A DNA stretch of 32,930 bases from Mollicutes bacterium (GTDB taxonomy: Bacteria; Bacillota_I; Bacilli_A; RF39; UBA660), in the NCBI GenBank assembly GCA_012520435.1, contig JAAYOI010000017.1, positions 1 to 32,930 on the forward strand, given 5' to 3'. The notes below the pieces were generated by a model. The model saw only the letters and a list, made by a program, of their open reading frames with translations, was not told the DNA's origin and searched no databases. Positions 4,199-24,599 of the stretch are shown here, one piece after another. Position 1 is the first letter of the stretch. Every line of letters begins with the position of its first letter. The translations under genes and the position numbers were made by a program.

Positions 4199-4209
4199 GA
4201 GGTATGATT

Positions 4210-7167: not shown

Positions 7168-7571
7168 TGAAAGAGTCTTTTTGGGCGATATTAATTGTTA
7201 TGATAGGATTAGTTTCTATAACATTTGTATATTTTTTCCAAAATTTAACTAATACTGATGAACATAATTATCATTTATTAAAAGAAACAACTGAAGCAGC
7301 TATGTTTGATGCGCTTGATTTGGCAGCTTATCGTGAAAGTGAAACAATTAGAATTGATCGTGAAAAATTTGTAGAAAATTTTGTTAGAAGATTTGCTGAA
7401 AGTGCTAGTCTAACACAAAATTATAAAATAAAAATTTATGATGTTAATGAATCTCCGCCTAAAGTTAGTTTAGAAGTTTCAAGTGTTCATGCAGGGGCTG
7501 TAACAGATACAGAATTTGTTGAATTTGATATTGTTAATCGTATTGATGCAATATTAGAAACGCCATATTAG
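7167..7571 (+). CDS. Small single-TM pilin-like/TadE-like protein
   Basis: MKESFWAILIVMIGLVSITFVYFF N-terminal TM followed by a short ectodomain; start overlaps the previous stop; sits upstream of CpaB. Confidence 0.55.
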   Translation: MKESFWAILIVMIGLVSITFVYFFQNLTNTDEHNYHLLKETTEAAMFDALDLAAYRESETIRIDREKFVENFVRRFAESASLTQNYKIKIYDVNESPPKVSLEVSSVHAGAVTDTEFVEFDIVNRIDAILETPY

Positions 7572-7586
7572 AAAGGAGAAAAATAA

Positions 7587-8429
7587 ATGAATAAAAATAA
7601 TTTTATAATGGCATTGAAAAGATTTATAAAAAATAAAAATACGGTAACAATTTTGGGGCTTTTTGCAATTGTTGGTATTTTATATTGGGGTTATAATTAT
7701 CAAATAAATAAACAAGTAAATCCAATTAGAAATATCCCAGTTGCTAAAGTAACAATCCAGCCTCGAACTTTGATTACAGCTGATATGATTGAATATGTTG
7801 ATATTCCACCTATTTTAATGCGTGAGAGGATTATTTTAAGTGAATCACGTATTATAGGCAAATATTCAAATTATAATACAGTTATACCAGCTGGGAGTTT
7901 ATTTTACGAAGATGTTGTAGTTGATAGGGAAGATTTACCAGATGCTTCTTTTGTTAAAGTAAAAGAAGGTGATGTTGTTTATAATTTTCCAGTAACTATG
8001 GAATCAACCTATGGTAATTCTATTTTCCCAGGTAATAAAATTGATATATATATGAAGGCGGAAAATAGTGTAGGACAAATAATGGTAGGAAAATTAATTG
8101 AAAATATTGAAGTTATTGATGTTAAAGATAGTAGCGGAAGACACGTTTTTGAAAACACAGAAGAAAGAAGAACACCAGCCTTCTTGATTTTTGGTCTTCC
8201 ACCTGAAATAAATATTTTATTAAGAAAAGCTAGTTATATGTCAAGATTTGCAGTTGAATTATTCCCAGTTCCTCATGGTGGAACTGCACCAGTTGAAGGG
8301 GATATTCAAGTTACTTCTCAAAACTTAAAAGATTTTATAAATGCTAATACTGTACCAAATGACGATCTTGTAGAACAAACACCACAAGAAGAAACAAATG
8401 AAGAAACAAACGAGCAAACTAACGAGTAG
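7587..8429 (+). CDS. CpaB/RcpC-like SAF-domain pilus assembly protein
   Basis: N-terminal TM, then PVAKVTIQPRTLITADMIEYVDIPP...GKYSNYNTVIPAGSLFYEDVV (SAF pattern); adjacent to TadA. Confidence 0.8.
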   Translation: MNKNNFIMALKRFIKNKNTVTILGLFAIVGILYWGYNYQINKQVNPIRNIPVAKVTIQPRTLITADMIEYVDIPPILMRERIILSESRIIGKYSNYNTVIPAGSLFYEDVVVDREDLPDASFVKVKEGDVVYNFPVTMESTYGNSIFPGNKIDIYMKAENSVGQIMVGKLIENIEVIDVKDSSGRHVFENTEERRTPAFLIFGLPPEINILLRKASYMSRFAVELFPVPHGGTAPVEGDIQVTSQNLKDFINANTVPNDDLVEQTPQEETNEETNEQTNE

Positions 8430-8447
8430 TAGAAAGGGGTTGTAAGC

Positions 8448-9599
8448 ATGAATGATACTTTGTTTGCCCAAATTGATTTTGGACCGTTAAGAGAATATTT
8501 AGAAAATGATGATATTACCGATATTTCTTATAGTAATGGTGGGCAAATATGGCTTAAAACCCTATCTAAAGGAATTTATCGTATTGAAAACCCAGCTGTT
8601 AGTAATGCATTCATGGAAAAATTAGCCTTTCAGTGTGCTAATGTTATGGGGAAGAGTTTTAATATGGCGTCTCCTTTTCTAGATGCTGAAAGTACCGAAT
8701 TACGTCTTAATTTTGTCCATGATTCAATAGCTCGTAACGGAATTGCGGTTGTTATTCGTAAAACACCAGCTAAAATTCGTCTCGAAAAAGACAAAATTAT
8801 TGATGATAAGTATATTACTTTAGATATTCATGATTTTTTAGTTAAATGTGTTGAAGGACATTGTAATATTATTGTTTGTGGAGAAACAGGTTCTGGTAAA
8901 ACCGAATTTGTAAAATATTTAGCTTCTAAAACAAAAGAAAATGAAAAAATAATTACAGTTGAAGATACACTTGAACTGCATTTAGATCGTATTTTTCCAC
9001 ATCGTGATATAGTGGCTATGAAAACTAATAATATTGCATCATATTCTGATGTATTAGTTACATGTATGCGTCAAAATCCTAAGTGGATATTACTTTCCGA
9101 AGTTAGAAGTGCGGAAGCCGTTTTAGCAGTTCGTAACTCTATATCTTCAGGACACTATATATTATCGACAATTCATGCTGATAAAGCCGCTTCAATTCCT
9201 CATCGTATGTATAGCTTGTTGGAAACAAATCAAGATATTGAACAATTTTTAAGGTCAATTTATCGTTATATTCAATTAGGAATATATATTCGAGCTTATC
9301 AGGATAAGGCAACAAAACGTTTTGTTCGTGAAATTGCGGAAGTAACAGAGTTTTATGTTACTGAGAATAATGAAACAAAATATAATACTATTTATAAGAA
9401 GTTTTCTAATGGTCGTGTTATTCAAAGAAGACCAAGTAAATACTTATTTGAATATTTAGAAATTCAAGGAGTAGAAATAGATAAGGATATTATTAAACCA
9501 ATAGGTGAGGAAAATAATGAAACGGAAAATGATAATGAAAATATTTTCCAACAACCTGTTAATTCATCAACAGAAAAAATTGAATTGTTGTTTGAATAA
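8448..9599 (+). CDS. TadA/VirB11-family secretion ATPase
   Basis: Walker A CGETGSGKTEF, ITVEDTLEL, RQNPKWILLSEVRSAEA, STIHAD. Confidence 0.93.
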   Translation: MNDTLFAQIDFGPLREYLENDDITDISYSNGGQIWLKTLSKGIYRIENPAVSNAFMEKLAFQCANVMGKSFNMASPFLDAESTELRLNFVHDSIARNGIAVVIRKTPAKIRLEKDKIIDDKYITLDIHDFLVKCVEGHCNIIVCGETGSGKTEFVKYLASKTKENEKIITVEDTLELHLDRIFPHRDIVAMKTNNIASYSDVLVTCMRQNPKWILLSEVRSAEAVLAVRNSISSGHYILSTIHADKAASIPHRMYSLLETNQDIEQFLRSIYRYIQLGIYIRAYQDKATKRFVREIAEVTEFYVTENNETKYNTIYKKFSNGRVIQRRPSKYLFEYLEIQGVEIDKDIIKPIGEENNETENDNENIFQQPVNSSTEKIELLFE

Positions 9600-9611
9600 A
9601 GGAGGGGTAAA

Positions 9612-10517
9612 ATGAATACGGGTTTACTTTTATTATTAGTTTCACTTATCTTAATTTTCATCATTGTCTATCGAAGAAATAGTGGAGAAAATGTATACAA
9701 ATATATCGTTAGACAAGTTGGTGTAGTTTATGATAAATATGCCCCTTATTCATTTAAAGTAGTTAGAGAAAAAGTTAAAGAATTAGGTCAAGAATATACA
9801 CCGAGACAATATACGATTCAGGTTACAATTTTTGCAATTGGTGCCTTAATTATTTCTTATATGTATTTTTATAATTTAGTTTTGTCTATTATTTATATGA
9901 TTTTAGCTATTAGTGTAATACCTTATTTAACTTATTTAAGATGTAAAAGAATATATAGCGAATTTATATTTGAGCAAATTCAAGTATATACTACTAACGT
10001 TATTATGGAATTTGCTACAACACAATCATTTGTTAAAGCATTAGAAGGAGTTTATGAATCAGGAGTATTGGAAGATCCTATAAAAAAAGATGTTAAAGTA
10101 ATGATTGATTTAGCATACGAACATGGAACGATTGTACCTTCAATTGAGTATATGAATAAAAATTATGATTATTATATTGTACGTAATTTGCACCAATTGT
10201 TTTATCAAATAACTACTGAAGGTTCTAGAGATGCAGGTGCTGCTTTAGAAAATATGTCTTTAGATATTGATATGCTTGTTGAAGGTGTTTATCGTGATAG
10301 AATGGATCGTGCTGCTTTTCATAAGAGATTTGTTCAATTTGGGATAGTATTATATTTGATGGTTATGTTAGTTCAATTCTTATTAGGTGTGGAAACATAT
10401 ATTAAAATGTTAGATAATGCCTTGGTTCAATTGTTGTTGCATGGAATTATTATTATTAATACATTTTTTCTATTAAGAGGGGAAAAATATTATAATGAAG
10501 ATGTAGGTGCTGAATAA
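9612..10517 (+). CDS. TadB-like type II secretion F-domain membrane protein
   Basis: Multi-TM architecture, cytoplasmic T2SSF-type region (EFATTQSFVKALEGVYESGVLEDPIKKDVKVMIDLAYEHG), directly downstream of tadA. Confidence 0.75.
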   Translation: MNTGLLLLLVSLILIFIIVYRRNSGENVYKYIVRQVGVVYDKYAPYSFKVVREKVKELGQEYTPRQYTIQVTIFAIGALIISYMYFYNLVLSIIYMILAISVIPYLTYLRCKRIYSEFIFEQIQVYTTNVIMEFATTQSFVKALEGVYESGVLEDPIKKDVKVMIDLAYEHGTIVPSIEYMNKNYDYYIVRNLHQLFYQITTEGSRDAGAALENMSLDIDMLVEGVYRDRMDRAAFHKRFVQFGIVLYLMVMLVQFLLGVETYIKMLDNALVQLLLHGIIIINTFFLLRGEKYYNEDVGAE

Positions 10518-11299
10518 TGGAATTTATATTAATTGCAATTATTCTAATTTATATATTAGAAGTAAATAGAACAATTGATACCAAGAAATTTATTGAAGAT
10601 GCAGAACCATATTTTAAATTTTTAACGGAAGATGATTATGTTTTCTTATTAAGAGTTAAATATGGTTCAGAAGTTGATGTCGATAAATTTTATCGTAAAC
10701 GTATTAGAGATGGACTTATTATAATAGTGTTTATGTTATTTCTCTTTTTATCAAATTTAAATTTTATTAATATTATATTTGCATTTATTATAGGTTATGT
10801 GGTTTTTAAAGTACCGTATATACAAATTCAAAGGTATTATAAAAATAATCTTCATAGAATTAATTTAATGTTGCCATATTATTTAAAAGGTTTAGAAATT
10901 TTAATTCAACATTATACAGTTCCTGTAGCTTTGGCAAAATCAATTGAAACTGCACCCGACATTTTTAAGCCGGGTTTAAGAAAGTTAATAGGGAGAATTG
11001 AAGCTGGGGATTCAACTGTTGATCCTTATATGGATTTTGCGAAAGAATACCCAGTTAGAGATTCAATGCGTATGATGCGTTTATTATATCGTTTAAGTTT
11101 AGGAAATCAAGAAAACAAACAGGAACAATTAATGATGTTTTCAAGAACGGTATCAGTTTTACAAAATAAATCACGTGAACAAAAATATAAAGATCGTTTA
11201 GATAGAATGGAAAGCCAAACAATGACAATGCTTGCTACAACAGGTGGTGGTATTCTAATATTATTACTACTGTCAATGATGATGATGTTGCAGTTCTAA
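10517..11299 (+). CDS. TadC-like type II secretion F-domain membrane protein
   Basis: Overlaps the upstream stop (TAATG); two TM regions flanking LPYYLKGLEILIQHYTVPVALAKSIETAPDIFKPGLRKLIGRIEAGDS. Confidence 0.7.
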   Translation: MEFILIAIILIYILEVNRTIDTKKFIEDAEPYFKFLTEDDYVFLLRVKYGSEVDVDKFYRKRIRDGLIIIVFMLFLFLSNLNFINIIFAFIIGYVVFKVPYIQIQRYYKNNLHRINLMLPYYLKGLEILIQHYTVPVALAKSIETAPDIFKPGLRKLIGRIEAGDSTVDPYMDFAKEYPVRDSMRMMRLLYRLSLGNQENKQEQLMMFSRTVSVLQNKSREQKYKDRLDRMESQTMTMLATTGGGILILLLLSMMMMLQF

Positions 11300-11302
11300 C
11301 AC

Positions 11303-11331
11303 TTGTGAAAATTGGTAAAATATGCTATAAT
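11303..11331 (+). promoter_or_regulatory. Strong-looking promoter in front of pilin-like gene (TTGTGA-N17-TATAAT, extended -10)
   Basis: ttgtga 11303-11308, 17-nt spacer, tgcTATAAT with TATAAT 11326-11331. Confidence 0.7.
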
Positions 11332-11366
11332 TATAATACTTAGAACATGAAAAAGGTGGTGATATA

Positions 11367-11588
11367 ATGAAAGAAGCTGCTGGAGAAGCAAATTTAACGG
11401 TAGTTGCAATTATATTAATTGGTGTAATTGCAGCTGTTGTAACACCATTAATTACTAATATGGTGAATACCTCTAAAGAAAAATCATGCTGTACAACAGC
11501 TGGTGGTGTATGGAAAAATAATAGATGTCAAAATACTAGTGCAAATACTTTTGATAATGCAACTTATCAAGCATGTCTTAGTGGATAG
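11367..11588 (+). CDS. Flp-like small pilin candidate
   Basis: 73 aa; MKEAAGEANLTVVAIILIGVIAAVVTPLITNMV hydrophobic N-terminus; 4 Cys in the C-terminal part; SD aggtggtgat; own promoter. Confidence 0.65.
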   Translation: MKEAAGEANLTVVAIILIGVIAAVVTPLITNMVNTSKEKSCCTTAGGVWKNNRCQNTSANTFDNATYQACLSG

Positions 11589-11599
11589 GTGAGAATTAA

Positions 11600-12031
11600 A
11601 TGCGAGAAGGAATAGGAAGTATCTTTTTATATAATTTAATAGCGATTTTTATCGTGCTAATTTTTGCGTTCATAGCTGGTACCGTAGTTTATTATAAAGC
11701 TTTTAAAGTAAACAATATGATAGTAAGTGCTATTGAAAAATATGAAGGTTATAATAATTTATCCGCTAAAGAAATTGATCAAAAATTAGGTACTATAGGA
11801 TATCAAACCACATCTAAACATAAATGTTATAAAAAGAATGGCAAAACAGCTTTGGAATATGTATCTACCAATCGTGGTATTTTTGATTATTGTGTTTATG
11901 AGTTTAATGAAGGCAATAATTTTCGTTCGTATGGAGTTATGACTTTTATTACAATCGATATGCCAGTAATTGGTGGTGTTTTAAAATTGCCTGTTTATTC
12001 GAAAACTAAATTATTATATAATTTTGGCTAA
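11600..12031 (+). CDS. Pilin-like/TadE-F-like single-TM protein, paralog 1
   Basis: N-terminal TM; shares NLI..FI, KV.N.I...IEK, TIGY, YCVY.F, IG, PVY..TK with the next ORF. Confidence 0.6.
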   Translation: MREGIGSIFLYNLIAIFIVLIFAFIAGTVVYYKAFKVNNMIVSAIEKYEGYNNLSAKEIDQKLGTIGYQTTSKHKCYKKNGKTALEYVSTNRGIFDYCVYEFNEGNNFRSYGVMTFITIDMPVIGGVLKLPVYSKTKLLYNFG

Positions 12032-12044
12032 AGGGTGAAGATGT

Positions 12045-12488
12045 ATGAGAGAATCAATAAGCAATACTTTTATTTTTAATTTGATACTAGTATTTATTAC
12101 AATTTTAATTGTACTTTTAGTTGGTTCTCTTAGTTACTCTAAAGCCTATAAAGTAAAAAATAAGATTATTGAGATAATTGAAAAACATAATTCATATGAA
12201 GCTGCACGTGAAGATATTAGTAATGTATTAAAAACTATTGGATATCGTGTCAATCGTACAGGACAACAAAATTGTCGACCTCAAACAAATGATGGAGGTC
12301 AAAGTGTGTATGCGATTAATAAAAATAGTGATTATCGCTATTGTGTTTATCCATTTAGTACAGCGCGTGGTAGATATTATCGTGTTGTAGCATACATGTA
12401 TTTTGACATACCAATTATTGGTAGAGAGATTGAGATTCCTGTTTATGGGGAAACGAAAATCATTTATGAATTAAATGAGCCTAGTTAA
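12045..12488 (+). CDS. Pilin-like/TadE-F-like single-TM protein, paralog 2
   Basis: Same architecture and motifs as 11600..12031. Confidence 0.6.
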   Translation: MRESISNTFIFNLILVFITILIVLLVGSLSYSKAYKVKNKIIEIIEKHNSYEAAREDISNVLKTIGYRVNRTGQQNCRPQTNDGGQSVYAINKNSDYRYCVYPFSTARGRYYRVVAYMYFDIPIIGREIEIPVYGETKIIYELNEPS

Positions 12489-12500
12489 GAAGGTGAAACA

Positions 12501-13502
12501 ATGAACGTAATAATTGCAAATAAATACCAGTCAATGTTACAAAGCCTTAATATAGATGTAATTAAAAGTCTTAATGGAGAGTTTGAAGTAGAGGAAATAA
12601 TTTCAACTTTTCAAAATTTTTACTATCAAAGAATGATTCTTGATATTACAGCTATAAAAAATTATAAAGATATTAAAACATTACAAAAATTATCGATTGC
12701 CCTAGATATGGATAAAATTATTTTAGTATTAGATGATGATCCAGAAAGTACATCTCCGGATTATTTATCGAAACTAATTTCTTTAGGAATATATAATTTT
12801 ACCCGAAATATTGAGGGCATTATGTATTTATATCATAATCCTAATAGTTATCGTGATGTGGCTCATATTCATCAAATTGAAGATTTAAAAACAGAAGAAA
12901 AAAGTCCAACAGTTGTTAATGCTCCACTACATGGTGGAGTTCGTATTATTGGAATAAAAAATGTTACTAAGCAATCTGGAGCAACCACTTTAACTTACTT
13001 GATGAAAAAACAACTTCAAAAGAATTATTCAGTGATTGCTATTGAGGTTGAAAAACGTGATTTTGCGTATTTTAAAGAAAAAGATATGTTTAGTGTGCCT
13101 GCAAGTGAAGTAGGTAATATGATTGCTAAACATAGTGATTTTGATGTTATTCTAATAGATACCAATAATAATGTTTCGGCCGAGACATTATGCCATGATA
13201 TTATCTATTTAATTGAGCCATCAGTTATCAAATTAAATCATCTTACAGCTATTGATGGTAAAATTTTAGATCAATTAAAAAATAAGAAAGTTGTTTTAAA
13301 TCAAAGCATGTTAAGTTCTAAAGATGTTTTGGACTTTGAATATGAGTCTCGTTTAAAAATTTTTTTCAATATGCCACCATTAAATGAAAGAGAAAAAGAT
13401 ATTCATATATTAAATGTTTTTTTGACTAAATTAGGATTTGATCGTCAAAAGAGTCCGGAAACCGAAAAGAAAAATAAACTTTTGGGATTATTTAACATTT
13501 AA
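12501..13502 (+). CDS. CpaE/TadZ-like MinD/ParA-superfamily protein with atypical P-loop
   Basis: GGVRIIGIKNVTKQSGATTLTYLMKKQLQKNYSVIAIEVE ... FDVILIDTNNN; N-terminal receiver-like region; Tad-cluster context. Confidence 0.65.
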   Translation: MNVIIANKYQSMLQSLNIDVIKSLNGEFEVEEIISTFQNFYYQRMILDITAIKNYKDIKTLQKLSIALDMDKIILVLDDDPESTSPDYLSKLISLGIYNFTRNIEGIMYLYHNPNSYRDVAHIHQIEDLKTEEKSPTVVNAPLHGGVRIIGIKNVTKQSGATTLTYLMKKQLQKNYSVIAIEVEKRDFAYFKEKDMFSVPASEVGNMIAKHSDFDVILIDTNNNVSAETLCHDIIYLIEPSVIKLNHLTAIDGKILDQLKNKKVVLNQSMLSSKDVLDFEYESRLKIFFNMPPLNEREKDIHILNVFLTKLGFDRQKSPETEKKNKLLGLFNI

Positions 13503-13505
13503 ATA

Positions 13506-13534
13506 TTGACAAAGTCTTAAAAATACAGTATATT
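13506..13534 (+). promoter_or_regulatory. Consensus promoter TTGACA-N17-TATATT
   Basis: ttgaca 13506-13511, 17-nt spacer, tatatt 13529-13534; then gggaggt SD and ATG 13562. Confidence 0.75.
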
Positions 13535-13561
13535 TATATTAATTAGGGAGGTAATAATTAT

Positions 13562-13927
13562 ATGTTTATATTAGCAAAAGAAATAACATCAACTATTGCA
13601 GTAGGTTGTCGAGATTTTGCTGAAATTCCAATTCAAATAGCTGAAGTTGTTAGAACAGTTGTAAAACTTATTCAAGTTGGTATACCTATCTTATTAATTA
13701 TTTTTGGAATGTTAGATTTAGGTAAAGCAGTTATGGCACAAAAAGAAGATGAAATTAAGAAAAGTCAACAAACTTTTATTAAAAGAATAATTGCTGCTGC
13801 AGTTGTATTTTTTGTAGTTGTAATTGTTCAATTAGTAGTAGGTATTGTTGCACCAAAGCAAAAAGATAAAGATGGTAATATAAAGAATAATATTTGGAGT
13901 TGTGTAGAAGAATTTGTTAGATGGTAA
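13562..13927 (+). CDS. Small two-TM VirB2/TrbC-like (T4SS pilin-like) protein
   Basis: VRTVVKLIQVGIPILLIIFGMLDLGKAVMAQKEDEIKKSQQTFIKRIIAAAVVFFVVVIVQLVVGIV: TM, short basic loop, TM; near VirB6/VirB4-like genes. Confidence 0.6.
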   Translation: MFILAKEITSTIAVGCRDFAEIPIQIAEVVRTVVKLIQVGIPILLIIFGMLDLGKAVMAQKEDEIKKSQQTFIKRIIAAAVVFFVVVIVQLVVGIVAPKQKDKDGNIKNNIWSCVEEFVRW

Positions 13928-13942
13928 TGACAAAAAGGTAAT

Positions 13943-13980
13943 AAAAAAACAATAATAACTATTTATTATTGTTTTTTTTT
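13943..13980 (+). terminator. Intrinsic terminator after VirB2-like gene
   Basis: aaaaaacaataataa-ctat-ttattattgttttttttt stem with poly-T tail. Confidence 0.75.
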
Positions 13981-13981
13981 G

Positions 13982-13990
13982 TGCTATAAT
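13982..13990 (+). promoter_or_regulatory. Extended -10 element (tgcTATAAT) for the next gene
   Basis: TATAAT 13985-13990 preceded by TGc; no clear -35, and the upstream region overlaps the terminator tail. Confidence 0.45.
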
Positions 13991-14030
13991 ATATGTGTGA
14001 AATTATCGAAAGTGGGAGAGTTGTTAATAT

Positions 14031-15722
14031 ATGAAAATATTTAAAAATATATGTTTAATTGGATTATTGATTTTATGTTTTATCAAAATTGATGTTGTTA
14101 GTGCTGATGAACCGGAATTTTATACAAAGATGACATGTAATTATAGTCGTATTAGTAATAAAAATGAAAAAATTACGATAGATAAAATGTATACTAGTGA
14201 TGGTATTGTTTGGAAAACAAGTAATGCAGATATAAAAAAAGCAATTGAAATCATGAAAAAACCTGAAGGTTTGTGGGAGGAAATTCAAAATTTTATTATA
14301 AACATTTCTAATTCACTTGCTAGAATTTTTAGTCCAGATTATGATTTAATATATAGTTTTCAAATATATGATTCTACTACTGAATGTCCATCTATAATAG
14401 TGTATATGGATTCTTTACTTTTTGGTGGTGTTGTAGGTTTTTATGATGACAAAAATATGTCTGAAGATAAATCAATTAAAAATCAAGATGAAAAAGGTTC
14501 TATTTTGTTCTCCCCATTTAAAGCATATGTATTAAATAGTTCAACTCATTCAGAAGAAGATATATATAATGAGTTACCAATTTGTGAGTATCGTACAGAT
14601 GAAACCAGTTCAACTAATAATGAATATTATACTTTAACTTTTACCCCTATTTTTGAATATAAAAAGATTACACCTAAAGGGAAAAATGTATTAACACTTA
14701 CTTATAATGCTACAGTAAAAGAAAACAAATGGGAAAGTGCTAAAAAACCATCGTTTGCAACGGGAAATGCTTCATTTTTAGTTTGTCCAGAATATGCAAG
14801 TTATAATGCTTACAGAAATGAATATATTTTGACTAATCAAAAAAAGTCTAAATCTGAAAATTGGAAAAAAGCAGCAGATGATAAGAATTTAAAAGTATTA
14901 TCAAGATATTATGATTTTTCATCTCAATTAAGTGTATTAGATGGAATAAAGGAAAATTATAGAGATGAGTGGATGGAAAATTTTACAAATTTATACAGTC
15001 ATCTTAATGGATTCTTTAATTCTTGTAATGAAGAAGTAACCCTTTATAAAGATAAAAATTTAGATTCTAAGAGAATGAAAAATTATCAGCAAAAAAATAG
15101 TGAACTTTTTAATAGAACTTTAAGTGTAATTAATAAAATTAAATTAGATAATAACTATACTATTAAAGATATTATGGATAAAAATATGACTTCAAAAATA
15201 TATGTTGATATTAAGACTAAATATGATGAAATTCTTGATTATTTTGAAGAAAGAAATGAAAGGTTTGGAATTTTATATGAATGTACATATGAAAAATTAT
15301 TAAAACAAGGGGATTTGAGTGATGAAGAAAAGCAAGCGTTAAAAAAAGAATATAAAGAGTATGAAGAAAATATGGCAGCAATGAATAAAGAATTAAAAAA
15401 AATAAAACTAGGACTTAATATTGATGTTAGTGATTTGGATTGTAGTTATTTATTAGATGAAGAGTTACTTGAATGGGTAAGAAAAGCTTTTACTTTTATT
15501 CAAATTGGTGGAGTAATTTTAGTTGTTATTTTAGGTATGATTGATTTTGGTAGGGCAGTTACTTCTACTGATGAAAAAGAAGATATCAAAAAGGCATGGC
15601 AAAGATTTGTTAAAAGACTTATTGCTGTTGGATGTTTAATATTGTTACCATTCATTATTGAGTTTGTTCTTAATTTGGTTGATATACCAGGTTTAACTAA
15701 TAAAAATCCGCTATGCAAATAG
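14031..15722 (+). CDS. Exported protein with large ectodomain fused to a C-terminal VirB2-like two-TM domain
   Basis: Signal peptide KNICLIGLLILCFIKIDVVSA; C-terminal VRKAFTFIQIGGVILVVILGMIDFGRAVTSTDEKEDIKKAWQRFVKRLIAVGCLILLPFIIEFVLNLV aligns by eye with 13562..13927. Confidence 0.7.
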   Translation: MKIFKNICLIGLLILCFIKIDVVSADEPEFYTKMTCNYSRISNKNEKITIDKMYTSDGIVWKTSNADIKKAIEIMKKPEGLWEEIQNFIINISNSLARIFSPDYDLIYSFQIYDSTTECPSIIVYMDSLLFGGVVGFYDDKNMSEDKSIKNQDEKGSILFSPFKAYVLNSSTHSEEDIYNELPICEYRTDETSSTNNEYYTLTFTPIFEYKKITPKGKNVLTLTYNATVKENKWESAKKPSFATGNASFLVCPEYASYNAYRNEYILTNQKKSKSENWKKAADDKNLKVLSRYYDFSSQLSVLDGIKENYRDEWMENFTNLYSHLNGFFNSCNEEVTLYKDKNLDSKRMKNYQQKNSELFNRTLSVINKIKLDNNYTIKDIMDKNMTSKIYVDIKTKYDEILDYFEERNERFGILYECTYEKLLKQGDLSDEEKQALKKEYKEYEENMAAMNKELKKIKLGLNIDVSDLDCSYLLDEELLEWVRKAFTFIQIGGVILVVILGMIDFGRAVTSTDEKEDIKKAWQRFVKRLIAVGCLILLPFIIEFVLNLVDIPGLTNKNPLCK

Positions 15723-15737
15723 AAGGGTGGCGATAAT

Positions 15738-17699
15738 ATGCATATGTTTGAAAGTGTATTTAGGTTTTTATTTGCATGGTTAGATAAAATTGTTGGATGG
15801 TTAATAATGCAAGGATATAACATGTTTGAAATTATTTCAGACATCAATATTTTTGGTGGAAAAATTTATGGAGCAGATTCAGAGATAGATATAACTGCAA
15901 TAGATATATTTAATAAGCGTATATATGCTTTGTTAGCTATATTTATGCTTTTTAAATTAGCTTTTTCATTAATAACATATATTCTTAATCCTGATGAACT
16001 TACAGATAAAAATAAAGGTGCTAGTAAGATAATTAGGAATGTTATAGTAGTTTTATTATTAATTATTTCAGTTCCTTATATTTTTAGAGTAGCTTTTGAT
16101 TTTCAAGGTATGATTGTTAGGAAGAATGTTATTAACAAATTGATCTTAGGGGTAGAAACAGTTGATTTTAATGAAGTAAAACCAGGACAACTTATGGCAT
16201 TTACTGTTTTTTCAGCTTTTGTTAGACCCAATCCTAATTATCCTGGTATGGTAGAAAACTGTGGTGACATATATTCACATAGAACTAGTGATGAATTGTT
16301 GACAAAAGATTGTAAGGATTTCTTGCATAAAAATGGCCATGATGATGTGATAGATCCTTTAGAAGTTGCTATTGCTAACTATGATTATAACTCATTATTA
16401 AGATATGATGTTATAGTATATGCCAAAAAAGATAATCAATTTTTGTTTAATTATATACCTTTAATTTCAACTTTAGCAAGTGGAATTATAGCCTGGGTTT
16501 TAATAATGTTTTGTTTTGATATAGCTGTTCGTGTTGTAAAATTAGGATTTTTACAATTAATTGCTCCAATTCCAATTATATCGTATATAGATCCTAAAAG
16601 TTCAAAAGAAGGATTATTTAAAAAATGGACAAAAGTTTGTTTTTCAACTTATGCTGATCTTTTTCTTCGTTTGCTTGCTATTTCTTTTGCAGTTTTTGTT
16701 ATAGGTATTATTACTACTGGTCAAATGATTAGATATAGTACTAAAGAAACAATTACTATTGAAAATGTTGGAAGTTTAGAATGGACTTTTATTCAAATAT
16801 TTATTATTATTGGAGCATTATTGTTTGCTAAACAATTACCAAAATTGATTGAGGATTTAACAGGTTTTAAATTTGATACGAAATTTACTTTGAATCCAGT
16901 TAAAAAATTAGGAACTGTTCCTGTAATTGGTGGAGCAGCTGCTGCTGGATTAACTATGGCAGGTGCTGCAATAACGGGAGGTGTAGGAGCAGGCGCTCGT
17001 TTAATAGGAGCAGGATTTTCACGTATACCTAGTCCTTTTGCAAAAGATAAAGAAGCGGCTAGTGAAAGAGCTAAAGAACGATATGATCGTAATATGGAAA
17101 GAATGCGAACGGCTTTTGCTAGTAAAATGGCTGCTAGTTCTTATGCCGCAAGTCAAAGGTGGATAACTGCTGGATTGGGAGGTTCTGATAAAGTTGCTGA
17201 TGTTGATAGTGCAAGAAAGACTTTAAGAAAAATAAAAGCAGAACAAACCAAGAAAGAAATAGAAGGGCGTTTTCAAGGTCGTAGGTCAATGGTTGAATTA
17301 GATAAACTAAGAGAAAGAGGAAAAGTACTACATCAAAAAGTTAAAGCACAAGAAGGTTCTAATCTTAGCGAAGGTGAAATATTGTTTGGACATAATAAAG
17401 TATATCAACAATCATATGATGATGTTTCAAATGCTAAACAAGAAATGTATAGGTTAAAAAATGAAATGATGGTGGTAGAAAGCAACTATTCAGCGGCAGC
17501 AAGTCAAGGTGATCAAGCTGCAATGGAGCAGTATAAAAAACAATATGTTGAATTGGCTAAAGTAGCAGGCAAAACTGAAAGTAAATATAATTATTTGAAA
17601 GCAAAACATGAAGATGTTAGAAAAGTATATGTTGAAGATGCTAAAATTGAAGACGCATATGAAGCTTATGACAAGATGGATAAAAAAATAGAGGTTTAA
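15738..17699 (+). CDS. VirB6/TrbL-like polytopic membrane protein with charged C-terminal cytoplasmic domain
   Basis: Several TM segments, Gly/Ala-rich GGAAAAGLTMAGAAITGGVGAGARLIGAGF segment, long charged helical C-terminus; T4SS gene context. Confidence 0.7.
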   Translation: MHMFESVFRFLFAWLDKIVGWLIMQGYNMFEIISDINIFGGKIYGADSEIDITAIDIFNKRIYALLAIFMLFKLAFSLITYILNPDELTDKNKGASKIIRNVIVVLLLIISVPYIFRVAFDFQGMIVRKNVINKLILGVETVDFNEVKPGQLMAFTVFSAFVRPNPNYPGMVENCGDIYSHRTSDELLTKDCKDFLHKNGHDDVIDPLEVAIANYDYNSLLRYDVIVYAKKDNQFLFNYIPLISTLASGIIAWVLIMFCFDIAVRVVKLGFLQLIAPIPIISYIDPKSSKEGLFKKWTKVCFSTYADLFLRLLAISFAVFVIGIITTGQMIRYSTKETITIENVGSLEWTFIQIFIIIGALLFAKQLPKLIEDLTGFKFDTKFTLNPVKKLGTVPVIGGAAAAGLTMAGAAITGGVGAGARLIGAGFSRIPSPFAKDKEAASERAKERYDRNMERMRTAFASKMAASSYAASQRWITAGLGGSDKVADVDSARKTLRKIKAEQTKKEIEGRFQGRRSMVELDKLRERGKVLHQKVKAQEGSNLSEGEILFGHNKVYQQSYDDVSNAKQEMYRLKNEMMVVESNYSAAASQGDQAAMEQYKKQYVELAKVAGKTESKYNYLKAKHEDVRKVYVEDAKIEDAYEAYDKMDKKIEV

Positions 17700-17700
17700 A

Positions 17701-17823
17701 AGTACAGAACCAAGCATTGATAAAGAAACAGGTTATAAAATGACAGACAGTGGTATATTTCTTGCTCCTGGAGGTTTTAATAATAAACGTGATTCTGATG
17801 CGGATCCTAATTCTAATACATAA
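17701..17823 (+). other. Out-of-frame 40-codon extension, possible displaced C-terminus of the VirB6-like protein
   Basis: agt aca gaa ... aca taa reads STEPSIDKETGYKMTDSGIFLAPGGFNNKRDSDADPNSNT*, starting right after the TAA at 17697-17699 in the +1 frame. Confidence 0.45.
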
Positions 17824-17860
17824 AAATTTTTAATATAAAAAGAAAAGGGTGTGATACTAG

Positions 17861-18178
17861 ATGAACAATAATTATTTAATACCGGCTAATTCAAAGAAAT
17901 CTATATTATATTTTGGATTGTTTACTACATTTGATTTAATATTATTTGGTTCAGGATTAGGGTTATCATTAATATTAGTAATGATAATTCCCTTAGGTAA
18001 TTTCTTATTAGCCTTATTAGCAATCTCGCCTGGAGTTATATCTGGTTTTCTTGTCTTTCCTGTTCCATATTATCATAATGTATTAACTTTCCTTAAAAGT
18101 GTAATTAGATTTTATACAGAACGCCGTAAATATCCGTGGAAAGGTTGGTGTTTCCTAGATGAAAAAGAAAATAAGTAA
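17861..18178 (+). CDS. PrgI/VirB3-like small membrane protein
   Basis: Two hydrophobic segments and YHNVLTFLKSVIRFYTERRKYPWKGWCF; located directly upstream of VirB4; SD agggtgtgat. Confidence 0.65.
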   Translation: MNNNYLIPANSKKSILYFGLFTTFDLILFGSGLGLSLILVMIIPLGNFLLALLAISPGVISGFLVFPVPYYHNVLTFLKSVIRFYTERRKYPWKGWCFLDEKENK

Positions 18179-18707
18179 TGGTAGATATACTAATGATTTA
18201 ATTCCTATTAAGAGTATTACTAATGGTATGATTATATTAGACAACAATTATAAAGTTACTGGTATAAAAATAATACCTCGTAATATTTTTATTCTTGATC
18301 AAGATATGCAGAATAGTATTATTGCCAATTTAAAAAATGTTTACAATATAATAGATTATGAATTTTGGATAATTGCCGCTGATCGACCTGTTGATATAAA
18401 TCTTTATTTATCACAATTACAATTATTGTATAATTCTATTACTAGTCAAGTTAAAAGAAAATTAATAATGGAAGATATTAATAAAGCTAATATGTTTATG
18501 AATAATAATGTAGTTGATACTGAATATTTTCTTTTATTTAAAGAAAAAGATAACGATTTAATTCAAAAACGTATTAGAACTTTAATAAATGCTTTTGCTA
18601 GTGCAGGATTATCTTCCCATCAAGTAACAAATGATGATTTGCGCATGATCTTAGATAACTTTTTAAATGGTGGACAAACTACTAATTTTGGGACGGTGAT
18701 TGGATAA
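18159..18707 (+). CDS. VirB4 N-terminal domain (CagE/TrbE/VirB-type), separate ORF
   Basis: NDLIPIKSITNGMIILDNNYKVTGIKIIPRNIFILDQDMQNSIIANLKNVYNIIDYEFWIIAADRPVDINLYL resembles the VirB4/TrsE N-terminus. Confidence 0.65.
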   Translation: MKKKISNGRYTNDLIPIKSITNGMIILDNNYKVTGIKIIPRNIFILDQDMQNSIIANLKNVYNIIDYEFWIIAADRPVDINLYLSQLQLLYNSITSQVKRKLIMEDINKANMFMNNNVVDTEYFLLFKEKDNDLIQKRIRTLINAFASAGLSSHQVTNDDLRMILDNFLNGGQTTNFGTVIG

Positions 18708-20491
18708 TGGATATAAAAAGTCAAATTGCCCCTAAAGGTCTTGAATTTAAATCTAGTAGTTTTGTCATAAGTGATAAACATGCCACTATTTTAACAGTTG
18801 TTTCTTATCCAAAATTTATTAGTCCTGGATATTTATCGTCATTAACAAGTATGTCAGGTATAAAAGTAGTTATAAAGCATATACCATTACCTTTTAGTGT
18901 TATATCAAAAATGATAAATAAGGAAATTGCTGATTTAAAGCAAAGATATCAAGAAGAAAATGATCGTACAATTCAAGAACGAATTAGACAAGATTATGAA
19001 TCATTAGAATACTTTATTCAAATGTTAGCTGCTAGTCAATCCAAAATTTATGATTTTCAAATGCACATAATGATTACAGCTGATTCTGAAGAAGAATTAA
19101 CAAGAAAAAAGATGCAAGTTCGTAATTATTTAGAAGCAATGGAAATGCGTGCTTTTCCATTGCGCTTTGAACAAGAAAAAGTATTAAAATCAATTATTCC
19201 AATATATCCTTCACAAGATATTGAACAAAGAATAGGAACACCAATTCCTTCTACAACTATTGCGGCTATGTATCCTTTTATTTTTGACAGTATAAAAGAT
19301 TCCGGTTTATCATGTTTATTAGGGGTTGATTTTTCAGGTGGTGTTATCTTATTTAACCAGTTTTTATATCAAATTCGTAAGGAACACAACCGTAATAATG
19401 CTAATATGATTATTTTAGGTTCATCAGGAAGTGGTAAATCAACAGCTGCTAAATTGTTATTAAGAACTAATATTCGTAATAATCATCAAATTGTTGTCAT
19501 TGATCCTGAAGGCGAATTAGAAGAAATGACAAAATTATATGGTGGGGATTTCATCGATTTAGGAAAAGGTGGAGAATATGGAATGATTAATCCCCTTGAA
19601 GTTGTTTTAGATTATGATGAAGAAGAAGCAAAACAAGGACTTGGGTATACTGTTTTAACGAGAACTTTACAAACAATCAAAGCCTTTTTAAAATATTATG
19701 ACCCTGATATTGAAGAAGATGTTGTTAATCTTTTTAGTGAAATAGTTCAAGATACATATCGTCGTTTTGGTATGGATTTTAATACTGATTTTACAAAGTT
19801 TAAATCAACTGATTATCCAACATTTAAAGATGTTTATGCAACTATTAGAGGGCGACTTATGTCAATGAGTGAACATAGTCATGAAAAAGATATTTTAGAA
19901 AAATTAGAAATTAAAATCAGACCAATTATTAGAGAATTAAGGTATTATTTTGATGGACATACAACCATTTCACCAAAAAGTGAATTTATTGTATTTAACA
20001 TAAGAGAGTTAATGAATGCTGATACAAATATTCGTAATGCATTATTCTTTAATATTTTAAAATATGCATGGGGCTTAACATTAAATAAATCAGTTAATAC
20101 AGTTTTAATGGTTGATGAAGCTCATGTGTTATTAAGTGGAAATAATACTTTGGGTGCTGATTTCTTAGCACAAGTTCAAAGACGTTCAAGGAAATATAAC
20201 ACGGGAACAATTATAATTACTCAACAACCTAGTGATTTCTCAGATCCAGCTGTTATTACTCAAGGAAAAGCTATTTTCGATAATGCTTCGTATTATTTAA
20301 TAATGGGACTTAAAAAACAAGCGGTTGAAGATTTAAGTAAATTAATTGATTTAAATGATAATGAAAAAGAAAGTATTAAAAGATATAATCAAGGTGAGGC
20401 TTTATTTATATGTGGAAGTAGAAGAATGCGTATTAATATAGTTGCTACTGAACAAGAATTAGATTCATTTGGAAGTGGTGGCGGATTATAG
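18707..20491 (+). CDS. VirB4-like T4SS ATPase, C-terminal part with ATPase domain
   Basis: Walker A LGSSGSGKSTAAK, IDPEGELEEM, TVLMVDEAHVLL, QRRSRKYNTGTIIITQQPSDF; TAATG overlap with the N-terminal ORF and SD cggtgat at ~18694-18700. Confidence 0.92.
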   Translation: MDIKSQIAPKGLEFKSSSFVISDKHATILTVVSYPKFISPGYLSSLTSMSGIKVVIKHIPLPFSVISKMINKEIADLKQRYQEENDRTIQERIRQDYESLEYFIQMLAASQSKIYDFQMHIMITADSEEELTRKKMQVRNYLEAMEMRAFPLRFEQEKVLKSIIPIYPSQDIEQRIGTPIPSTTIAAMYPFIFDSIKDSGLSCLLGVDFSGGVILFNQFLYQIRKEHNRNNANMIILGSSGSGKSTAAKLLLRTNIRNNHQIVVIDPEGELEEMTKLYGGDFIDLGKGGEYGMINPLEVVLDYDEEEAKQGLGYTVLTRTLQTIKAFLKYYDPDIEEDVVNLFSEIVQDTYRRFGMDFNTDFTKFKSTDYPTFKDVYATIRGRLMSMSEHSHEKDILEKLEIKIRPIIRELRYYFDGHTTISPKSEFIVFNIRELMNADTNIRNALFFNILKYAWGLTLNKSVNTVLMVDEAHVLLSGNNTLGADFLAQVQRRSRKYNTGTIIITQQPSDFSDPAVITQGKAIFDNASYYLIMGLKKQAVEDLSKLIDLNDNEKESIKRYNQGEALFICGSRRMRINIVATEQELDSFGSGGGL

Positions 20492-20530
20492 TAAAATAAA
20501 AGATATAGCTAAAATTGGTGGTGATTTTTC

Positions 20531-23107
20531 ATGGATAATCAACAAATACCTAATGATGATCAACAAATGCAACCTTCAAAAGAGGATATCAAAAAGCAAC
20601 AAGCTAAGGATGCGATTTCTAATGTAGGTAAAGAAATTGGTAAAAAAGCACTTGAAGCACATGGTGTACCTCCTGGCTTGTCTGATTTAGCAGCCAATAA
20701 AATTGCTAATAATCCTTTTGTTCAATCAAATTTAAATAAGGTTGCAAACAATTCGCTTGTGAAAAATGCATTAGGGGATAAAGGGTTATCAAGTGGCGGA
20801 TTACCACCTTTAAAATCGCCAATGGGAGGATTACCAGGTCTTAGTAGTGGTGGAATTTCTAATTCTGCTGATGAGGATGATGGTGGAGCACTCGATACTG
20901 CTCAAAAAATGGCTAGTACAGCCATGAAAATCAAAAAATATTGGCCTATTATATCAGCAATTGCTCCCGTTGTGGGTTGGATTTTGCTTGCAATAATTGG
21001 TATTATTTTGATAATGATTCCTATTATGTTTATTCAAGAAAATATTGAAAAATTTGAAGAAGGAATAGATAAATTTATTAATTTTATTTCGGGACAAGGT
21101 TGGGAAACATCAGAAGTAGTATTTTTTCAGACATTAAAAAATGAATATGATCGTTTTCATAATCGTTTAGAATATATCGAAGGGGAATTTGATATTCCTT
21201 TAATTGCTGCTACAGTTCATTTTAATAGAATAGTTGATCCAGATGCTTATTCTTATAATGGCGAAAATATTGAATATGACGATAGTAACTATAATGATTC
21301 TAATCCCGTAATACCGGCTAATCAGTTGCGTAATTTTTATGTAAAAGCTAATAATGAATTAGGTAGTGCTTGGACTTTAGTTCCTGGCCAAAAAAAATTA
21401 ATTGGACATCTAATTGATACTAAAATTTCATACAAATGTGTTGCTTATCCATCAGGTTGGTCTTTTTTTAATTTTGATGCATGGGAAGAATTTTATGCAA
21501 TTATAAAAACACAATTAGATGATTTTTGGGAACATTTAAATTTTACTGCAACTGATACAACTAAGGACTTAATAGAAAGAAAAAGTGTTTTACGTACTAT
21601 ACGTTTGATATATATTTATGCTTTCGAAGGTGGAAGTGATTATTTTGAAAATGAACTTACTAATTTACTTTACGAAATAGCTAATGATAATATTTATAAA
21701 AATATAGTCGAAATTATTAAAACCATTGAGAAACCAGAAAAAGAATGTGGTGATAAAAGTATAGCTGTTCCTATTTTAAAGAAATTTATCAATTATGAAG
21801 AATATAAAAAATATTTAAAAACATATTTACCGTTACAACCTTATGCTCGATGTGAGAATTGTGAATATAAAAATGCTTCTAGTGAACGAAAAGAGCAATT
21901 ACTTAATCAATGGATTGAAGAAATATTTGATCAAAGGGATGCTTATAATTATTTAAGAGGTACTCCTTCTAAAAATCAAATTATGTATGTACCGGGAATG
22001 GCATCTTTGCCTGTGCAAATAGGTGCAGGTGAAGATTGGAAAGACTATATATCAGGAGCAAAAAGTGGAACACCACGTGGTTATGGAGATCCACGTTGTT
22101 ATAAAAATGGGGAACTTGATTCTTATAATTGTTTTCATAAAGGTGTTGATTTTTCTTTTGCTTGGGGAACGCCTGTAGTAGCGATTGCTAACGGTGATGT
22201 TATAATGGCGGTTTCTAGCAACGAAGGTTATGGAAATTTTGTAAAATTAGGGCATGATCTTAACAACGATGGAAAATATGAATATTATAGTTTATATGCT
22301 CATTTATCAGAAATAAATGTTAGTATTGGAACCAAAATTGGTGGTGGTCAACAACTTGGAAAAGTTGGTTCAACTGGTAATTCAACAGGACCTCATTTAC
22401 ATTTTGAAATTAGAGATAGTGATGACAATCCAATTGATCCAGCTCCAATTTTAAATGGAATTCAAGAAGGTGGTAGTCATCCTTTATCAGATTTTATGGC
22501 TTGTAGAATGTATACTGATTCACAAATTGCAGCAATTAATAATAATTTAGCTAATGCTGTGAATAAAGCTGGTTATGGAACTAGAGAAGGTGTAGTTGCG
22601 GCTGCTAAATATTTAGCAAGTGAATTAGATGTAACAGTTCCTTATTGGTATGGTGGTAAATATAAACAAAAAGGAATTAACAAAGAATGGGGTTGTGATA
22701 AAACTATTACAGCTAATCCAGGTACTGAAAGACAACCGACTGGTTCTATCCATCCATATGGATTAGATTGTAGTGGATTTGTTTCATGGGCAATAAGAAA
22801 TGGTGGTTATAAAGCAAATACCATTCTTGAAGGTACAGATAATCAGATAAATTTTACTAATGAATATGTTGATTGGAATGATTATAATAGTATTAATAAG
22901 GTTAAACCTGGTGATTTAGCATGGACTGATGGTCATATTGGAATAATTGTTGAAGTTGATAAGGCAAGTTGTTCTTATTATGTAGCTGAAGCTAAAGGAG
23001 CAAAATATGGAGTATTAATTACTAGAAATAGTTGTTTTGGTAGTGATTTTAAAACAATTATTTTAATGGATGGTTACTACAATAACAATAATAACAAGGA
23101 GGCTTAA
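20531..23107 (+). CDS. Membrane-anchored bifunctional peptidoglycan hydrolase (M23/LytM + NlpC/P60)
   Basis: TM ~140-165; M23 motifs HKGVDF...SLYAHL...GPHLHFEI; NlpC/P60 motifs YGLDCSGFVSWAIR...GDLAWTDGHIGIIV. Confidence 0.9.
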   Translation: MDNQQIPNDDQQMQPSKEDIKKQQAKDAISNVGKEIGKKALEAHGVPPGLSDLAANKIANNPFVQSNLNKVANNSLVKNALGDKGLSSGGLPPLKSPMGGLPGLSSGGISNSADEDDGGALDTAQKMASTAMKIKKYWPIISAIAPVVGWILLAIIGIILIMIPIMFIQENIEKFEEGIDKFINFISGQGWETSEVVFFQTLKNEYDRFHNRLEYIEGEFDIPLIAATVHFNRIVDPDAYSYNGENIEYDDSNYNDSNPVIPANQLRNFYVKANNELGSAWTLVPGQKKLIGHLIDTKISYKCVAYPSGWSFFNFDAWEEFYAIIKTQLDDFWEHLNFTATDTTKDLIERKSVLRTIRLIYIYAFEGGSDYFENELTNLLYEIANDNIYKNIVEIIKTIEKPEKECGDKSIAVPILKKFINYEEYKKYLKTYLPLQPYARCENCEYKNASSERKEQLLNQWIEEIFDQRDAYNYLRGTPSKNQIMYVPGMASLPVQIGAGEDWKDYISGAKSGTPRGYGDPRCYKNGELDSYNCFHKGVDFSFAWGTPVVAIANGDVIMAVSSNEGYGNFVKLGHDLNNDGKYEYYSLYAHLSEINVSIGTKIGGGQQLGKVGSTGNSTGPHLHFEIRDSDDNPIDPAPILNGIQEGGSHPLSDFMACRMYTDSQIAAINNNLANAVNKAGYGTREGVVAAAKYLASELDVTVPYWYGGKYKQKGINKEWGCDKTITANPGTERQPTGSIHPYGLDCSGFVSWAIRNGGYKANTILEGTDNQINFTNEYVDWNDYNSINKVKPGDLAWTDGHIGIIVEVDKASCSYYVAEAKGAKYGVLITRNSCFGSDFKTIILMDGYYNNNNNKEA

Positions 23108-23839
23108 ATGAAAAAAAAGTCATTTAAAATAATATTATTAGGAATATTTTGTCTTTTGTTAGTAGGATGTAATATTGATTACAATGTTGTGATTGATAGT
23201 AATAATAGAGTTAAGGAAAATATTATAATTAATATTCCTAATAATATATTATCTAATGACGAAAGCCCTAAAAAAGCATTAGATAAAAAAATTGAAGGAT
23301 ATAAAAAAATACCAGCTTATAAATATTATAAAGTTAGTAGAAAAGTAGGAAAAAACAATTCTATTCTTAATATTAAAAGAGAATATTCAAAATTGGAAAA
23401 ATATGCTGATTCACCAATTTTAAATGATTTATTTGAAAATATTATGATTATTGAAAATGATTATTATACTGTTTTTAAAACAGTTGGTGATTACAATTAT
23501 GATTATTTTTATGGAAGAGTAAGTGAACCAATTGATCCTAGTAAAGCAAGTTCAATAAAAGATGTAGTCGTTAAGATACAATTGCATAATAAATTAATTG
23601 AAAGTAATGCTGATGAAGTTGATGAAAAAAATAATATTTATACATGGTATTTTTCGCCAGAATATACTGCTAAATATATTTATATGAAATATGGTAAAGA
23701 AAAAAGATATGATATAATTATAAAATCTTTTATTAAAAATAATATTGGTATAGTAATTGTAGTTTCAACTATTGTTATTGGTGTATTAGTTTTAGGAAGT
23801 ATTTTCTTTATTAAGCGAATAGGGGCTAATAAAATTTAA
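23108..23839 (+). CDS. Lipoprotein with C-terminal TM, LppM-like, paralog 1
   Basis: Lipobox LLVGC; DYNVVIDSNNRVKENI; C-terminal hydrophobic segment and basic tail. Confidence 0.7.
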   Translation: MKKKSFKIILLGIFCLLLVGCNIDYNVVIDSNNRVKENIIINIPNNILSNDESPKKALDKKIEGYKKIPAYKYYKVSRKVGKNNSILNIKREYSKLEKYADSPILNDLFENIMIIENDYYTVFKTVGDYNYDYFYGRVSEPIDPSKASSIKDVVVKIQLHNKLIESNADEVDEKNNIYTWYFSPEYTAKYIYMKYGKEKRYDIIIKSFIKNNIGIVIVVSTIVIGVLVLGSIFFIKRIGANKI

Positions 23840-23855
23840 GATAAGGAGGGTACAA

Positions 23856-24587: not shown

Positions 24588-24599
24588 TGGGGTGGGAGA

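Follow-up and report, generated by a model that had tools for sequence, protein, structure and literature searches.

Stand-alone and ectodomain-fused copies of a VirB2-like pilin module in a joint Tad and type IV secretion locus of RF39 bacteria

In type IV secretion systems (T4SSs) of the R388 and Agrobacterium type, VirB5 is the tip component of the pilus, and in the R388 model the pilus is initiated by VirB5 on VirB6, so that VirB5 ends at the tip (PMC12857230). According to a 2025 review, VirB2 pilins and VirB5 tips are absent among Gram-positive T4SSs, with the Patescibacteria as sole exception (PMC12857230). The T4SS of the Patescibacteria is chromosomal and relaxase-poor; its VirB2-like pilins are divergent and encoded in arrays, and a type IV pilus occurs alongside it (PMC12102498). 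Bacteria of the order RF39 reportedly lack the genes for de novo nucleic-acid synthesis, and a dependence on others is suspected (PMC13155120).

We analysed a window of 32,930 nucleotides (GC 27%) from an RF39 Mollicutes bacterium; it corresponds to contig 56 in an assembly of 1.06 Mb that is 94% complete. All evidence is sequence from metagenome-assembled genomes (MAGs), from which a filament is predicted. Two neighbouring forward-strand genes had been predicted to share a VirB2-like module of two transmembrane helices, alone in one and fused to a large exported ectodomain in the other, and both ORFs are present as described. The gene at 13562-13927 encodes a short, stand-alone VirB2-like pilin of 121 aa without a signal peptide, recognised by the module profile and BLASTP. 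The gene at 14031-15722 encodes a long VirB2-like protein of 563 aa, in which a signal peptide, an ectodomain and a helical stalk precede the pilin module (ORF, PF18895 and AF2).

In a BLASTP alignment, residues 25-96 of the short protein pair with residues 478-550 of the long protein, with 29/73 identical (40%) and 46/73 positive positions, one 1-aa gap and an E-value of 2e-15 using composition-based statistics. A search of the long protein against its own genome finds, besides itself, just the short gene (E 1.7e-10), and a family profile search finds two modules in the whole assembly. Based on BLASTP and HHalign, the module covers residues 26-97 of the short protein (about 13637-13852, + strand) and residues 478-550 at the C-terminal end of the long protein (about 15462-15680, + strand), near the segment originally picked out by eye (about 15478-15690). 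The original prediction had proposed a profile comparison, and we ran HHalign on two independently assembled alignments, A2 (short pilins encoded after tadZ, 23 rows) and A3 (pilins encoded before virB6, 21 rows). It gave a probability of 99.8% and an E-value of 5.3e-29 over 87 columns, and the similarity thereby withstands the refutation proposed along with the prediction.

One could suspect that two-helix proteins resemble each other merely because they are hydrophobic, as Pfam gives the short protein several chance membrane families and Foldseek cannot distinguish helical hairpins. However, the similarity of the modules is specific and significant at profile level and after correction for composition, and both modules have a charged-loop motif and a Cys pair. 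The iterative module profile matches 83 of 1581 ORFs from the relatives' loci and the window, and it is never the top label for the TadB, TadC, VirB3 or VirB6 membrane proteins of the searched loci, so the similarity is more than general hydrophobicity. Chance hydrophobicity is ruled out by both the BLASTP and the profile-profile comparison, and we regard it as next to impossible. The occurrence of one module in a stand-alone and a fused copy is thus borne out.

The VirB2-like identity of the module is also supported. In the AF2 model the short protein consists of two long helices, 24-59 and 62-96, with a mean pLDDT of 76 and values above 90 in the core. As in VirB2, the protein is small and consists largely of two hydrophobic helices with a short basic loop between them, and the gene adjoins virB6, virB3 and virB4. 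The Pfam family PF18895 (T4SS_pilin) matches the long protein with an E-value of 1.4e-4 and 22.3 bits, below the curated cut-off of 26.6; the Pfam scan gave no PF18895 match for the short window protein, and other family members, for example in G060, G168 and G016, pass the cut-off. Foldseek gave no match at E 0.001 with the short pilin model and a PDB sequence search found no relative, but these searches are uninformative because helical hairpins are too simple.

A Cys before helix 1 and a Cys after helix 2 are found in 82 of the 83 modules, the exception being truncated, and in 120 of the 121 class members of a second set of loci. In the short protein these are Cys16 (13607-13609) and Cys114 (13901-13903, an invariant column in A5). 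In the long protein they are Cys471 (15441-15443) and Cys562 (15714-15716), both nearly invariant among 90 long proteins. The loop has a mean net charge of +1.4 and the flanks have -1.8 and -1.2, so that by the positive-inside rule both ends of the module are predicted to lie outside the cell. Ectodomains are fused at either end of the module, as expected if the termini are outside. A disulfide may form between the flanking Cys residues of this predicted N-out/C-out hairpin and close the module outside the cell. Some VirB2/TrbC pilins are reported to be cyclic, and a disulfide would be an alternative way of joining the ends.

The two pilin genes lie between Tad-pilus genes and T4SS genes, all on the forward strand. 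The Tad part (7167-13502) has matches to DUF5411 (1e-53), T2SSE (4e-27) and, below the cut-off, RcpC (E 4e-4), and encodes a DUF5411 protein, a CpaB/RcpC-like protein, a TadA/CpaF ATPase, TadB-like and TadC-like proteins, a Flp-like small pilin, two TadE-like proteins and a TadZ/CpaE-like protein, where the names other than DUF5411, T2SSE and RcpC rest on synteny and size only. A prepilin peptidase (Peptidase_A24, E 6e-20, G000:C58) is encoded elsewhere in the genome, so that the TadA ATPase, the CpaB-like protein and the peptidase expected of a Tad pilus are all found. At the start of the locus (4204-7167) there is an exported, Cys-rich protein of 987 aa without a family match. This protein is recognisable in only 8 loci and is perhaps another variable surface protein.

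After a gap of 15 bp, the long pilin gene is followed by the gene for a VirB6-like membrane protein (15738-17699), identified from synteny and a match to NF045889 (Mbov_0396) below the cut-off (E 1.1e-7). It is followed by a small VirB3/PrgI/TcpE-like membrane protein (17861-18178; synteny and a sub-threshold match to PF12648) and by a split VirB4. The 182-aa product of the first virB4 gene (18159-18707) has no Pfam match and is assigned to the VirB4 N-terminus by position; a separate gene of this kind is found in 25 of the loci, and the relatives share the split. The 594-aa product of the second (18707-20491), the VirB4 ATPase, matches profile positions 295-891 of 894 in NF045975 (VirB4_plasma) with an E-value of 8e-108, below the cut-off. 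Next come a VirB1-like peptidoglycan hydrolase with M23 and CHAP domains (20531-23107; PF01551, E 2.3e-28) and a VirD4-like coupling ATPase (24600-26723; NF045973, E 1.1e-90, above the cut-off). The hydrolase is strongly divergent among close relatives, with a median identity of 0.33 in 10 pairs, and between it and virD4 there are two tandem paralogous lipoprotein-like genes (23108-23839 and 23856-24587).

The locus has the VirB4 and VirD4 ATPases expected of a conjugative T4SS of the MPF_FATA type. However, the Pfam scan found no relaxase among the window genes, PF03432 has no match in the genome (94% complete), and the locus does not have a mobile location but lies between scpA/scpB and rnr. 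In relatives rmuC, and in several genera also rnr, are found behind the locus, as in the window. We therefore read the locus as a probable resident chromosomal machine and not a conjugative element.

Loci with a VirB4 that is 78-88% identical were found 80 times. The hosts are MAGs named Bacilli, Mollicutes, Tenericutes, Bacillales or Erysipelotrichaceae bacterium, and Candidatus Coprosoma intestinipullorum, whose genus is placed in the GTDB order RF39 (PMC8035907). The module is present in 105 of 117 sampled genomes, and of 392 genomes sampled from the phylum, profile A1 matches 18 at E 1e-6, each of them from the same family as the window. The gene order TadZ, short pilin, (long pilin), virB6, virB3, virB4 is kept across relatives. 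Many genera in the family keep Tad and T4SS genes together in one locus (7167-26723 in the window). One relative (L064, 11846-19900) has three consecutive VirB6-like genes, two of them of about 1040 aa, behind one short pilin.

The first set of relatives contains 83 modules in 40 loci. The 23 modules directly after tadZ are mostly proteins of about 110-140 aa without a signal peptide. Most of the 22 directly before virB6 start with a signal peptide, and their N-terminal region spans 54-584 aa; three further genes both follow tadZ and precede virB6. At least 100 aa precede the module in 13 of the 25 pre-virB6 pilins of this set. The search for fusions in other genomes, also proposed originally, was extended to a second set of 80 further loci, which overlaps with the first in a few genomes, and here an ectodomain of 100 aa or more (143-543 aa before the module) is present in 39 of the 68 pre-virB6 pilins. 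Pilin arrays have up to six members, and the long ones are found at either end. In some loci there is just one pilin, or all pilins are short, so that a decorated subunit is not obligatory.

The nearest sequence neighbour of a long, pre-virB6 module is another long one in 47 of 50 cases, and that of a short, after-tadZ module another short one in 54 of 64 cases. The neighbours of each window module are mostly of the same class and from other genera, which rules out a recent local duplication and makes the duplication older than the sampled genera. Of the predicted duplication plus fusion, the homology and the fused pair stand and the local event does not. The fusion is one among many, the module being joined at either end to essentially unrelated, exchanged ectodomains in many loci across the family.

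The long window protein starts with a signal-peptide-like sequence (aa 1-26, 14031-14108), MKIFKNICLIGLLILCFIKIDVVSA, and of the 40 pre-virB6 pilins whose module is preceded by at least 50 aa, 38 have a signal-like hydrophobic start. The ectodomain comprises aa 27-470 (14109-15440). It has no detectable homologue in any fetched relative locus, even at E 10. AF2 predicts a helical part at aa 302-461, more confident roughly from 388 to 461, and gives a poor, low-confidence model of the head, aa 27-300. Among the 90 long proteins almost no known domain was found besides the pilin family, only one GDSL enzyme and a few weak, unrelated matches. No similarity to VirB5 was found for the window protein or among these 90 proteins.

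We compared how fast the parts of the locus change in 44 close pairs (VirB4 at least 90% identical; the pairs are not independent). The median identity is 0.92 for VirB4, 0.84 for VirD4, 0.81 for TadZ, 0.79 for VirB3, 0.70 for the short pilin, 0.64 for the long-pilin module and 0.49 for VirB6, and it is 0.22 for the ectodomain against 0.17 for shuffled ectodomains. As the ectodomains are near the shuffled background even among very close relatives, a single ancestral fusion followed by slow divergence is unsupported. The DNA of two loci (L084 and L086) is about 95.6% identical along 20 kb, the exception being the segment from the ectodomain to virB6: the signal peptides are nearly identical, the ectodomains are unrelated, and the module and virB6 are 76% identical. 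The same is seen within genomes. Two dispersed genes of G004 share a module stretch of 364 bp (91.8% identical) and two tandem genes of G066 one of 344 bp (96.5% identical), with unrelated ectodomains in both cases. This pattern would be explained best by cassette exchange or conversion together with putative diversifying selection. Although the genomes are MAGs, an assembly error is unlikely as the repeated cause in intact ORFs at one boundary.

A promoter-like site (TTGACA-17-TATATT, 11/12 matches, 13506-13534) precedes the short pilin gene, and relatives show the same tendency. This site alone is weak, as the regional promoter scan overall is not above shuffled expectation. A hairpin resembling an intrinsic terminator, with a 16-bp stem and a U-run (13943-13978), follows the short gene and separates it from the long one; it folds with -11.8 kcal/mol (z -5.0, 0/200 shuffles as good). 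The consensus terminator scan missed this AT-rich hairpin because it requires G-C pairs, and folding detected it. Upstream of the long gene we read a possible extended -10 like element, TGCTATAAT (13982-13990). Across the relatives, a promoter-like site within 110 nt upstream is found for 73/104 short signal-less pilins (70%), 6/79 long pilins (8%) and 4.4% of the other locus genes. A terminator-like hairpin within 110 nt downstream is found for 78/104 (75%), 24/79 (30%) and 13.4%, respectively. The contrast between short and long is significant (Fisher p 1e-18 for the promoter and 2e-9 for the terminator, ignoring kinship among the genomes). The layout supports separate transcripts, with a probably abundant short and a scarcer long subunit, and the predicted roles of major subunit and decorated variant gain support from it.

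Modules are also found in orphan loci away from T4SS genes, where the module is near the N-terminus and followed by a C-terminal domain. The partners are a GDSL esterase (L038), a C39 peptidase (L180, E 1.4e-6), a D,D-carboxypeptidase (L186, E 2.4e-9), a Big_2 plus a YkuD-like domain (L181), an alpha/beta hydrolase (L185) and a weak GH99-like match (L182). One genome (G079) has up to 16 module matches, including a tandem of four. The four tandem genes of L180 (3258-8936) resemble each other in the pilin module at the N-terminus and differ in the C-terminal domain, which is the C39 peptidase in one and GDSL-like by eye in another.

Our main reading, with a probability of roughly 55%, is that the locus encodes a major pilin and hypervariable, decorated minor pilins of a T4SS/Tad-linked surface filament or collar. 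The resident T4SS, coupled by synteny to the Tad pilus, would make this filament or collar from VirB2-like pilins. Its major subunit would be the short protein, which is undecorated and whose transcript would start at a promoter of its own and end at the terminator; the long protein would be a minor subunit built on the same hairpin. The export signal and the N-out/C-out hairpin would place the ectodomain of the long protein outside the cell on its helical stalk, and the Cys pair may close the module there, akin to the joined ends of some VirB2/TrbC pilins. Partner cells, host glycans or phages could be the targets of the variable ectodomain, and meeting such variable targets it would be exchanged, and would diversify, at a far higher rate than the machine.

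As the long gene adjoins virB6, whose product is the proposed pilus platform in R388, a role as a VirB5-like tip or initiator would be the most likely one. In monoderm systems, which lack VirB5, its place could be taken by a pilin-type protein whose gene immediately precedes virB6. From gene position and expression layout, the long pilin is possibly the pilus tip. Its assembly into the filament, its tip location and its binding to targets are what we infer from the sequences. The co-divergence of the long-pilin module and VirB6 is weak (partial Mantel r 0.22-0.27). Similar values are obtained with VirD4 (0.22) and the short pilin (0.27), so it is not specific and adds nothing to the tip reading.

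The orphan enzyme fusions, being away from the T4SS, weigh against a pilus, as the module could be just an anchor. Here the hairpin would be a common membrane anchor: the short protein would form the pilus or channel, and the long ones would merely anchor exported adhesins or enzymes. The C39 peptidase, D,D-carboxypeptidase, GDSL esterase, YkuD and alpha/beta hydrolase fusions fit this, and a membrane anchor would suit enzymes acting on the cell wall. However, any helix can anchor an exported protein, and a plain anchor needs no conserved motif, Cys pair or fixed neighbourhood with virB6; the modules of the long proteins also group by class and remain conserved. We consider this explanation rather unlikely. 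The enzyme fusions would also fit a module that serves as a substrate or cargo signal, with the fused domains shed or delivered to neighbours by the T4SS as a polymorphic effector system. One conserved module bears diverse enzymes, several per genome (up to 16 matches in G079), related modules with different C-terminal domains stand in a tandem array of four, and VirD4 is present. But a signal peptide or the hairpin topology alone would already export the cargo, and the searched literature has no precedent of a VirB2-module effector; we regard delivery as improbable.

A filament or collar of major and decorated pilins thus remains our preferred reading. The combination of fused pilins and fast-changing exported domains suggests a swappable display or attachment system on a secretion machine. 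More tentatively, and at somewhat less than even odds, the T4SS pilin hairpin may have become a portable display module in this gut Bacilli family with its reduced genomes. A conserved Cys-bracketed pilin would bear an open-ended set of exchanged ectodomains and enzymes, in a polymorphic pilus for contact with partner cells, parallel to the epibiotic Patescibacteria. Most of the genomes sampled from this gut lineage, which is abundant and uncultured, have a resident T4SS with VirB2-like pilins. The variable ectodomain is the natural candidate for determining what is recognised, and the module repeats within genomes suggest a route by which it changes. The pilin system would thus be a concrete entry point to the interaction of RF39-type bacteria with other cells. 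In the searched literature, which included few subscription papers, VirB2-like pilins fused to ectodomains or enzymes, or a locus of this type in RF39, are not described.

The Patescibacteria are likewise monoderm with small genomes, and their system, as far as the available part of the source goes, has VirB4, VirB6, VirB3 and several divergent PF18895 pilins and co-occurs with a type IV pilus (PMC12102498). That part makes no mention of ectodomain or enzyme fusions in the Patescibacteria arrays; the window-type locus also differs from what is described there in being joined to Tad genes, in occurring in Bacilli and in modules with a Cys pair. The nearest curated pilin-like, VirB6-like and VirB4-like families are Mbov_0395, Mbov_0396 and Mbov_0397 of the Mycoplasma ICE (NF045849, NF045889, NF045975). 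However, the window matches are below the curated cut-offs and the Mycoplasma families belong to mobile elements. The Mycoplasma pilin-like family is of 80 aa without an ectodomain, and its VirB4 profile describes one protein where the window has two genes.

Within the Bacilli, a comparable arrangement is found in a genome of another family (G040), where a short PF18895 pilin and a 511-aa protein flank virB4 (L165, 7698-13173), the latter built as signal peptide, ectodomain and PF18895 module like the long window protein. Such fusions thus arose or persisted more widely. The short pilin there lacks the Cys pair, as do the PF18895 short pilins examined in other Bacilli families; the ectodomain is different and no Tad genes adjoin.

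With the VirB2/TrbC and F pilins (R388, Agrobacterium), the window locus shares the two-helix pilin, the VirB6 platform and a pilin gene adjoining virB6. In contrast to these systems, no VirB5 homologue was detected, the pilin has a Cys pair at its ends, and the decorated protein is itself of the pilin type. The extended VirB6 proteins of the Rickettsiales are a further parallel, as there too a membrane component of the T4SS is enlarged by big hydrophilic domains (PMC7648143, PMC12857230). The carrier of the extra domains is VirB6 in the Rickettsiales and the pilin in the window-type loci.
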